DNA from: Bryobacterales bacterium
GTDB lineage: Bacteria; Acidobacteriota; Terriglobia; Bryobacterales; Bryobacteraceae
DNA length: 64,000 nt
Direction: 5' to 3'
NCBI GenBank assembly: GCA_003164035.1
Contig: PLRS01000077.1
Location: 1 to 64,000, forward strand
Part shown: positions 11,115 through 58,023 of the stretch, one piece after another
Numbering within the stretch: position 1 is the stretch's first letter
How the letters are laid out: every line of letters starts with the position of its first letter
Position numbers and translations under genes: made by a program
The notes under the pieces: model-generated
Databases searched by the model: none
What the model saw: only the letters and a program-made list of their open reading frames with translations
Told to the model about the DNA's origin: nothing

Positions 11115-11222
11115 CCATGCCGCCCCAATGTGCGCGCCCAGCCACTCCTGTATCGAAAGAACTACACTAGAGCGATTGACTTCGCCGAAAACAGTGGCAA
11201 GCTATATCTAGGTGGTCCGCAG

Positions 11223-12362
11223 ATGAAAATCGAAGGCGTAGCTGGAGTTGTAGCCGTGATCGGTCTGGGGGCGCTGGTAGCGTCGGCGCAACCGGTGATT
11301 TCGGCGAAATCGGGAGTGGTGGCCTATCAGGAAGGGCAGGTCGCGCTGGACGGGCAACCCCTGGAAGCGTCGCTCACGCACTTCGCCGACGTCAAAGAGA
11401 ACGGCGTTCTCGAAACCGAGCAGGGGCGCGCCGAAGTTCTGCTCAACCCGGGTGTGGTGCTGCGGCTGGGCGAGAACAGCTCGCTCAAGATGATCACCAA
11501 CCGGCTGATCGATACGCGCGTCGAGCTCGTGAAGGGATCGGCGGTGGTGGATGCCCTCGAAGTCGGCAAAGATACCAGCGTGACGGTGGTGACGGCAAAC
11601 GCCGCGGTTACGCTTCCCAAGGCCGGTATCTACCGCTTCGACACCCAACCTGCCGCGGTCAAGGTCTTCAAGGGAAGCGCGGACGTCGAGATAGGCGGCG
11701 AGTTTGTACCGGTGGCTACGGGCAGAATGTTGTCTCTCGACGACGCCTCGGCCAAGCCGGAAAAATTCGATACCGAGGATACCGATGCGCTGGACCGCTG
11801 GAGCCATCGGCGAAGCGAGTATATGGCGATGGCGAACGTGTCGTCGGCGCGCCAGTCGTTATTGTCGGGAAGCACATTCTATCCGACATTATCCGGAAGC
11901 GCTTTCTACCCGACGATGGGTGGCGTGGGGCAGGGCATGGGATGTATGCCGTCCTGGAGCTTCAACATGTGGTACGGCATGTCGACCTACGTGCCGTGCA
12001 GCGGGATGTTCATGGATCCCTACGGGTTTCCCTATTACAGCCCGTTTATGGCCGGTTACGCCGGTTGGATTCCGGGAGGCTACGGCTGGATACGGAACGG
12101 CGGCGGTGGCGGCGTACCGGGATCATCGGCACGGGGGGTCGTGAATCACCCCGGAAATCCGACCGGGACGCCCGCCAGAGGCCTGTCGGGAGCGGCTACG
12201 ACAGGCAATCGCGGGCTGGGCGTGGGCGGTTCCTCGGGTGCTGGCAGCGGCCGGTTTAGCGGAGGAACCAGCGTGGGCGGCGGGGCTTCTTCCATGGGCC
12301 ACGCGTCGGCCGGGATGGGCGGCGGCGGGCACGCCGGCGGCGGTGGTGGCGGGCACAGATAG
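11223..12362 (+). CDS. Secreted FecR-domain protein with glycine-rich tail
   Basis: A 379-residue exported protein. A signal peptide (MKIEGVAGVVAVIGLGAL, cleavage after ASAQ) is followed by a FecR-type domain at about residues 35-190, seen as ENGVLETEQGRAEVLLNPGVVLRLGENSS and TSVTVVTANAAVTLPKAGIYRFD broken into short pieces. A Tyr/Pro/Gly/Met-rich middle leads to a C-terminus rich in glycine, ending in HAGGGGGGHR. FecR domains usually sense or bind in the periplasm, but no sigma factor or TonB receptor partner is adjacent, so a signalling role is not supported here. The ATG at 11223 was chosen because it begins a complete signal peptide; an upstream in-frame start would bury it. Confidence 0.75.
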   Translation: MKIEGVAGVVAVIGLGALVASAQPVISAKSGVVAYQEGQVALDGQPLEASLTHFADVKENGVLETEQGRAEVLLNPGVVLRLGENSSLKMITNRLIDTRVELVKGSAVVDALEVGKDTSVTVVTANAAVTLPKAGIYRFDTQPAAVKVFKGSADVEIGGEFVPVATGRMLSLDDASAKPEKFDTEDTDALDRWSHRRSEYMAMANVSSARQSLLSGSTFYPTLSGSAFYPTMGGVGQGMGCMPSWSFNMWYGMSTYVPCSGMFMDPYGFPYYSPFMAGYAGWIPGGYGWIRNGGGGGVPGSSARGVVNHPGNPTGTPARGLSGAATTGNRGLGVGGSSGAGSGRFSGGTSVGGGASSMGHASAGMGGGGHAGGGGGGHR

Positions 12363-12371
12363 AGCGGTCCG

Positions 12372-12490
12372 GACGTGGCGCACGCACTTTTGCGTGCCGT
12401 GTCGAGACTTTCTCGACACCCGCTAGCGCGTGTTATGCCGAGCGTCGGCAAAAGTGCCGACGCGGCACGCACCAGTGCGTGCGCCGCGTC
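12372..12490. repeat. Inverted pair of two-hairpin units
   Basis: Four short hairpins follow one another between two convergent genes: 12380-12397 (7-bp stem), 12399-12419 (9-bp stem, loop ctt), 12442-12463 (9-bp stem, loop aaag) and 12465-12482 (7-8 bp stem). The right half (12442-12490), read in reverse complement, aligns with the left half (12372-12419) with about nine differences and one single-base gap in a loop. The differences inside the second and third stems are compensated on both sides, for example GTGTCGAGA/TCTCGACAC against GCGTCGGCA/TGCCGACGC. The element can fold from either strand and could work as a bidirectional terminator or be a REP/BIME-like element. Confidence 0.85.
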
Positions 12491-12584
12491 GAAATGGCAG
12501 GTTATTTCCTAACTGGGCCTTAGCTCCGGTAGATAGAGAACTCCCGAGCGCGGCTACTATTGCGGGGCTGAACGGTCGGCTTGC

Positions 12585-13031
12585 CTAAACTGCCTGGCGA
12601 AGAGGCCGGTAGCGGCGACTGGCCCGAAGGCCTATCAATTCCGCCACTTTTCCGAGCAACAAGGGGAGGTTTTCCGCATAGACGGAAAACTGCTGGCGGC
12701 TGTTCGACCGGGTGGGAAGGCGCCGGGCGGCAGTGATCACCGCCGTGGCCGGATGGTAATCCTTCACGCGGGCGTAGGCCAACACGTTGCGGCCGGCATG
12801 GTGCTCTCCGGGCTTGAGCTCGGCTTCGCTCAGAACCAGATCGTACCTGCCCTCATCCAATTTGGTGAGAGCCTCGGACGGAGTGGCCGCCGCATCCACG
12901 GCGTAACCACCGGCCTGCAAAATCGTCTGTAGCGCCAGCCGTGGAGCCAAGTCGCCATGCACCACCAGAACCCGAGCCAACTGGAGGTTTCGCGGTGCTG
13001 CGTAGCTTGAGCCGGCAACAAATTTTCTCAT
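12585..13031 (-). CDS. Degenerate response-regulator receiver protein
   Basis: A 148-residue single-domain protein resembling a CheY-like receiver: LARVLVVHGDLAPRLALQTI, then GGYAVDAAATPSEALTKL, then YDLVLSEAEL and ATAVITAARR. The normal phospho-acceptor aspartate in the DLVLxD position is replaced by glutamate (E69), and the usual acidic pair reads GD (residues 26-27). The Thr of the VIT-A motif is kept. Such proteins may be locked in an active-like state or work without phosphorylation. There is no output domain and no histidine kinase nearby. It is divergent from the DUF6624 gene across 246 bases containing two inverted repeats. Confidence 0.7.
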   Translation of the reverse strand: MRKFVAGSSYAAPRNLQLARVLVVHGDLAPRLALQTILQAGGYAVDAAATPSEALTKLDEGRYDLVLSEAELKPGEHHAGRNVLAYARVKDYHPATAVITAARRLPTRSNSRQQFSVYAENLPLLLGKVAELIGLRASRRYRPLRQAV

Positions 13032-57718: not shown

Positions 57719-58023
57719 TGTCTCCGTCGGCGGCGGTGTGGGGCAGGTTGGTAACCTGCCGAACGATTGTCCAATCGGTCCCGGCCGAGCGCAGGCGAGA
57801 GAAAACTCGCCTCAACCCAAATTCCACCATAGCAGGAGTTCGGCGATTCATCTCGGCCTCCTTGCCGCGCCAGACCAACACCTCGTGGTTCTGACATCGC
57901 AGCTTGCGAGGTCAAAACCGGGCCGCTCACCGGCTGCACGCCGGCTTGACAACCCCGAGCGTCTGCTATGCTAACGGCGGCAAGGCAAGGATCCCGACGT
58001 CCTGAAATTGACCGGTAGATTCC
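57719..58023. other. Divergent intergenic region with a hairpin and a possible promoter
   Basis: ggcaggtt (57742-57749), loop ggt, aacctgcc (57753-57760) is a perfect eight-pair hairpin just upstream of truB. Toward the antitoxin, TTGACA (57946-57951) is a perfect -35; TATGCT (57967-57972) is 15 and TGCTAA (57969-57974) 17 bases away as possible -10. No other gene is recognised in the 305 bases. Confidence 0.5.

Follow-up and report, generated by a model that had tools for sequence, protein, structure and literature searches.

What is the block of inverted hairpins that separates two convergent genes in the genome of a soil bacterium of the Bryobacterales, and why are its stems kept? The window analysed here, a stretch of 64,000 nucleotides from contig PLRS01000077.1, compares with itself at this point as two inverted arms (12372-12411 and 12451-12490) that are 85% complementary over 40 nt. 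The original prediction read the block as four hairpins arranged as an inverted pair of two-hairpin units, and we find exactly this at 12375-12487. With high confidence we interpret the feature as a REPIN made of two-hairpin REP units, spread by a RAYT transposase encoded in trans, with the second hairpin as an additional recognition element and with arrival of this copy on a carrier. Here we address the layout and copies of the element, the evidence that its folded form is selected, the RAYT genes beside its relatives, and the explanations that compete with ours.

The element and its dispersed copies

The pair spans 113 bp with its feet facing outward, which is the inverted doublet arrangement of a REPIN. 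Each unit begins with a four-base foot; hairpin A, with 7 bp, comes after a single spacer base, and hairpin B, with 9 bp, after one more base. On the forward strand, the left unit has the foot GTGG at 12375-12378 (placed by unit scan and alignment), hairpin A at 12380-12397, and hairpin B, with an arm of the GTGTCGAGA type, at 12399-12419 (both placed by the scan and the covariation alignment). The right unit lies on the reverse strand, with hairpin B, arm of the GCGTCGGCA type, at 12442-12463 and hairpin A at 12465-12482 (alignment and covariation); its foot at 12484-12487, placed by alignment, is GCGG, in contrast to the GTGG of nearly all aligned copies. Gene calls and a domain search place a FecR-domain gene upstream (11130-12362, forward strand), with its stop 12 bases before the left foot, and the convergent gene (12585-13031, reverse strand) resembles a response-regulator receiver domain, at 27.4 bits against a Pfam cut-off of 30.2. 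The interval 12488-12523, which ends in CTTAG (12519-12523), probably forms the right-hand end of a carrier that resembles a MITE, as judged by eye.

The folding z-score of the element is -8.5 on the forward and -9.3 on the reverse strand, and none of 200 shuffles was equally stable on either. The two-hairpin pattern at a score of at least 13 was absent from 20 shuffles of the whole window, in which 12 hits reached 11 and 3 of these reached 12; the left unit scores 15. No Rfam family matched within the window at its gathering score, which ruled out an Rfam RNA family as the identity of the hairpins. Single two-hairpin units of three other families occur elsewhere in the window, at 2077-2119 and 2145-2188 on the reverse strand and at 57738-57780 on the forward strand; they resemble units found at L055, L054:1245, and L054:220 or L039:530.

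The window element is one copy of a dispersed repeat. A blast search with it gave 84 matches in its own genome (8.0 Mb, 169 contigs), which resolve to 48 places (the fetched loci plus the window). The original prediction had proposed a covariance-model search of the genome and its relatives, and had named a lack of further copies and of conservation as what would speak against it; the search instead returned at least 150 matches in the 8.0-Mb genome and matches in 16 of the 41 family genomes searched, its own included, with counts per genome running from 1 to at least 150. We took the host family to be Bryobacteraceae from the nine closest named RAYT relatives (L058-L066; 53-84% identity), which are Acidobacteriota and in several cases labelled Bryobacteraceae or Bryobacterales. 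By a crude gene caller, 13 of 78 units fall inside open reading frames, compared with 6103 of 7600 random points; the window-type unit is in this respect a REP of many, mostly extragenic copies. One further genome, G034, carries 25 matches to the unit model beside a single weak RAYT match (2.3e-6), and perhaps holds an orphan population. Another small element sits within hairpin B at L032, L033, L036, and perhaps L013:2034, with an apparent GAGACT duplication flanking it.

Both neighbouring genes are kept in 6 of the 11 relatives fetched, where they overlap by 4 bp at the closest and stand 259 bp apart at the widest, with no unit between them in any of the six. These relatives with an empty slot belong to other genera (FecR 45-53% identical), which leaves the insertion undated. 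By eye, three of the six gaps (L172, L173, and L182) hold a long terminator-like hairpin, and the window element may have replaced a terminator; the gap of L175 holds other hairpin repeats.

Covariation and the unlike B hairpins

To follow pairing among copies we used an alignment (A1) of 74 half-units, 48 of them distinct, that was gathered by sequence similarity, with ends trimmed by a base or two; four of 78 half-units (the interrupted left units of L032, L033, and L036, and the deleted right unit of L037) stand outside it. In this alignment 97.0% of cells pair, compared with 89.1% in shuffles and at most 51.4% with slid partners. Double changes occur in 7 pairs, and 64 cells are changed on both sides, against 21.8 in shuffles—many rows are related by descent via the carrier, so these cells are not independent events. 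With the loop gap shifted, helix B is 98.0% paired, and the alternatives seen are CG/TA, AT/GC/CG, GC/CG, and AT/TA. Nearly all rows carry the foot GTGG, within the GT[AG]G of REPs; however, REPs have one hairpin per unit, and we file the window element as a REP variant because its units have two.

The three B-stem changes named in the original prediction (T-A to C-G, A-T to G-C, and G-C to C-G, with pairing kept) are all present, and the alignment supports its claim of selection on a folded form. Its account of their origin, a duplication within this locus followed by compensation, is rejected, since the carrier copies have the unlike pair too: all 16 carrier-labelled pairs, the window's included, have unlike B hairpins, nearly always of the same two types. 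Most carrier-labelled pairs inherited their B covariation, and that of the window is largely inherited; other copies and other families show further base changes beyond the inherited ones. The prediction left the folded molecule as RNA or DNA. The folded form stands, and we read single-stranded DNA bound by a transposase as the most likely molecule because units flank RAYT genes.

Folded as DNA, B is local in 8 of 11 short pairs, including the window's, and B is joined to B in 14 longer pairs, only partly so in L189. The A hairpins pair with each other, rather than locally, in 25 of 25 pairs folded. We gave up the idea that B always stays local when the two B hairpins are unlike, as L039, L042, and L194 pair B with B. 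For REPINs, a clover form, not a long hairpin, has been proposed as the form recognised by the RAYT (Fig. S11 legend, PMC3116915).

RAYT genes and the two-hairpin format

The genome has 12 Y1_Tnp matches. One gene for an IS200-like REP transposase, or RAYT (L052, on contig C123), carries the window-type unit, inverted, on both sides and with no carrier—the arrangement of a cognate RAYT gene flanked by its own REP sequence. Different units in the same two-hairpin format adjoin three others (L053, L054, and L055), and L057 has one of each. In a shuffled control of 378 kb, one unit reached a score of 11 and none reached 12. At genes whose start could be placed, the 5' foot often precedes that start by 70-106 bp, with the 3' foot near the stop.

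These proteins have the HUH motif, the catalytic tyrosine region, and the fold of a RAYT (TnpAREP). H94, V95, H96, and Y153 are invariant in the RAYT alignment (A2), the best solved match by sequence is the TnpAREP structure 4er8 (5.9e-9), and a predicted fold of L058 (mean pLDDT 85.8) also matches 4er8 best (1.3e-8, TM 0.51 by query). Six proteins score 67.4-78.8 bits with the NCBIfam RAYT model NF047646, below its cut-off of 80.

We pooled 75 RAYT matches, and a tree of 74 rows, built without L056 and with one RAYT fragment shorter than 120 aa set aside, contains a clade of 54 with support 100/99. Within 300 bp of the gene, a two-hairpin unit is found for 49 of the 54 clade members at scores of 11-12.5, for 48 at 13, and for 43 at 14; these units came from a structure scan into which pairing is partly built, and A1 is the set gathered by sequence. 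Outside the clade the corresponding numbers are 2 of 20 at score 11, 1 at 12, and 0 at 12.5, and units on both sides of the gene occur in 35 of 54 clade members compared with 0 of 20 outside (score 11). No two-hairpin unit was found near the remaining five clade members, one of which (L140) shows a single hairpin. Mapped onto the tree, the two-hairpin label requires 8 changes, 6 of them forced by starred branches; the changes arise from the misses within the clade and from the two outside RAYTs that score at 11. The tree is rooted at its midpoint, and the direction of the format change would follow from that root. An earlier tree of 39 rows, restricted to proteins of up to 260 aa, placed the label on one side of a weakly supported branch (47/84). 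Among 96 units near clade RAYTs the feet are GTGG in 82 and GTAG in 14, the two feet to which the scan was restricted. Unit sequences differ among RAYT subclades, with the two-hairpin format kept. At the level of the sequences compared, the format is concordant with one RAYT clade.

Outside the clade, an ordinary single hairpin, mostly of 8 bp and directly at the foot, was found at 11 of 19 loci, and none at the threshold used at the other 8. Elsewhere in the phylum, 14 loci of other families yielded a single-hairpin unit only at L238 and L245, the latter also with one two-hairpin score. About 110 bp downstream of a Verrucomicrobia RAYT lies a two-hairpin-like unit with GTAG (L070:1474, reverse strand), possibly of independent origin. 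In the proteins, 22 alignment columns differ between the clade and the outside rows by the threshold chosen, and one separates them fully: position 170 of L052 is Y or F in 52 of 52 clade rows scored and W in 20 of 20 outside rows. At position 60 the outside rows have W throughout (19 of 19), and the clade has mostly Y, F, or H, with W in three rows.

The two hairpins of a unit also agree with each other at their tips, taken as the closing base and the first two loop bases. In 45 distinct units, the A and B tips share 2.40 of 3 letters compared with 1.355 when permuted (0 of 20,000 permutations), and 1.95 compared with 1.23 when counted by 20 tip classes; RAYTs nearest to L050 or L051 were set aside for this test. 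The stem base letters, as a control, show no excess of matches (1.09 compared with 1.25), and the tips are not identical in 16 of the 45 units. Loop bases were critical, by SELEX and mutation, for two group 3 RAYTs and not for the E. coli RAYT, according to the portion of PMC8266576 consulted. Because the tips match, we infer that one RAYT may read both hairpins; the main alternative account of the match is descent, in that B could be a duplicate of A.

What carried the element here

From the sequences we take as shown that the unit has a foot and two hairpins, that units pair in inverted orientation and are dispersed, mostly outside genes, and that the same unit lies next to a RAYT gene; that a small single-strand DNA transposase spread the repeat is probable. 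A RAYT supplied in trans, the nearest being L052, would bind the unit as single-stranded DNA, use the foot as a guide, and cut and move the inverted pair. Hairpin B, on the strength of its tip, would serve as a second recognition element for the same RAYT. A MITE-like carrier with outer inverted repeats and CTWAG at both ends, moved by some further transposase, probably brought the window copy to this site. Going further, we raise as a tentative idea, somewhat against the balance of probability, that the RAYT clade switched from one- to two-hairpin REPs, that a unit docks two protomers of the same RAYT, one on each tip-matched hairpin, and that substrate and enzyme changed together; the W of outside proteins gave way, at one position, to Y or F in every clade row scored.

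The carrier itself offers another account, in which the element is only a MITE whose outer inverted repeats are moved by another transposase while the hairpins ride as passive cargo. A carrier end lies on at least one side at 30 of 48 places and on both sides at 16, compared with 1 of 186 control stretches. A pattern for the end repeat matched 54 times and its control once, and in at least seven places the two ends carry, by eye, an identical CTWAG word. These other copies show the marks of a MITE, terminal inverted repeats and target duplication; in the window copy just the right end with its CTTAG seems to remain (both by eye), the end repeat there is one base short and fails a substitution-only pattern, and no left end was seen. 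However, seven inverted pairs have, by eye, unrelated flanks right up to the foot, other pairs have long spacers, the RAYT at L052 is flanked by units without a carrier, and the same carrier ends surround other units of this format at several loci, all of which makes passive cargo distinctly unlikely. At L223, L224, L225, L226, L229, and L233 the outer carrier repeat adjoins units of the GTGGCGCGGCCA family, and at L223, L224, and L229 the other end holds a GTGGCGCA unit. Fifteen further stretches around the end repeat, inspected for the repeat alone, revealed no recognisable autonomous parent of the carrier. Carrier ends around REPINs suggest REPINs riding on a second mobile element. A bidirectional terminator or 3' mRNA stabiliser for convergent genes would suit the site itself, the terminator-like hairpins of three relatives, and the 15 convergent sites among 40 classed (19 are tandem and 6 divergent); against it, no stem followed by a T run was found in the region 12200-12800, on which we rejected an intrinsic terminator, and the terminator activity in both directions that the original prediction proposed to test is unsupported by sequence. 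As dispersal and the RAYT link would still require another cause, we hold this role, except as a secondary use, to be highly improbable.

Hairpin B might alternatively be kept to prevent a long perfect palindrome in inverted pairs, and not for recognition by the RAYT. Short-span pairs (110-113 bp) not labelled as MITE have unlike B hairpins in 9 of 9 cases—8 of 8 without L010, a probable remnant of the carrier, and common descent of the short pairs is possible—whereas long-span pairs do so in 3 of 11, with the stem of L191 among them perhaps drawn wrongly (Fisher 0.0014; L036 and L032, in which B was not measurable, stand outside the comparison). A 2013 survey also suggests that heterodimers escape hairpin removal (PMC3733652). 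Yet 3 of the 11 short pairs folded still join B with B, lone units beside RAYTs keep B too, and the matching of tips is left unexplained; we regard avoidance of palindromes as an unlikely reason for hairpin B, if the least unlikely of these alternatives.

We return to a two-hairpin REPIN moved by its RAYT, and to its place among known systems. RAYT recognition and the spread of REPs are still being worked out, and here one well-supported branch divides two-hairpin RAYTs from one-hairpin relatives within one family, and even within one genome—a natural experiment on hairpin recognition, in which RAYT and REP partners could be swapped in vitro and the residues that differ between groups tested. 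As described in the parts consulted of PMC3116915 and PMC6006769, the REPs and REPINs of E. coli and Pseudomonas share with our element a GT[AG]G foot, a palindrome, extragenic siting, high copy number, inverted doublets, and a cognate RAYT. In contrast to those REPs, hairpin A is immediately followed in each unit here by another hairpin with a matching tip, and it usually begins one base past the foot. The proteins resemble TnpAREP subclass 2.4 (Bertels group 4) in NHVH, WQ, and similar length (median 194), with a near-match in the Y motif (YIExNP here, YIxNNP there); the likeness is one of motifs, and the REPs listed for that subclass are, in contrast, single long hairpins or double-foot REPs (PMC6006769, in part). 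The class 3 repeats of the same source, about 600 in Solibacter usitatus, are likewise acidobacterial, of high copy, and beside Y1 transposases, but have the foot CnGA and a YV..EQ motif, and we rejected them as the identity of our element on both counts. The genome's own L056 Y1 transposase, with YVVEEQ, resembles that class, and no two-hairpin unit was found beside it at score 11.

The open literature that we searched, which included PMC2817692, PMC12306157, and PMC3174227 and covered the 2017 Bertels survey of RAYTs through PMC6006769 (itself in part), yielded no link between a RAYT clade and a two-hairpin REP. The closest parallel lies in the double inverted repeats of P. putida (607) and P. 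fluorescens (4255), which occur beside a tyrosine transposase gene in hundreds of genomic copies and combine a degenerate GTAG-1 unit with an adjoining second stem-loop. Compared by description, that second stem-loop is called unrelated, in contrast to the tip-matched hairpin here, and the sections consulted of that account mention neither tip matching nor a link to a transposase clade (PMC3733652). Pseudomonas is a precedent for two-stem units, and we regard the paired hairpins as a variant of REP/RAYT that is new as far as that literature goes.
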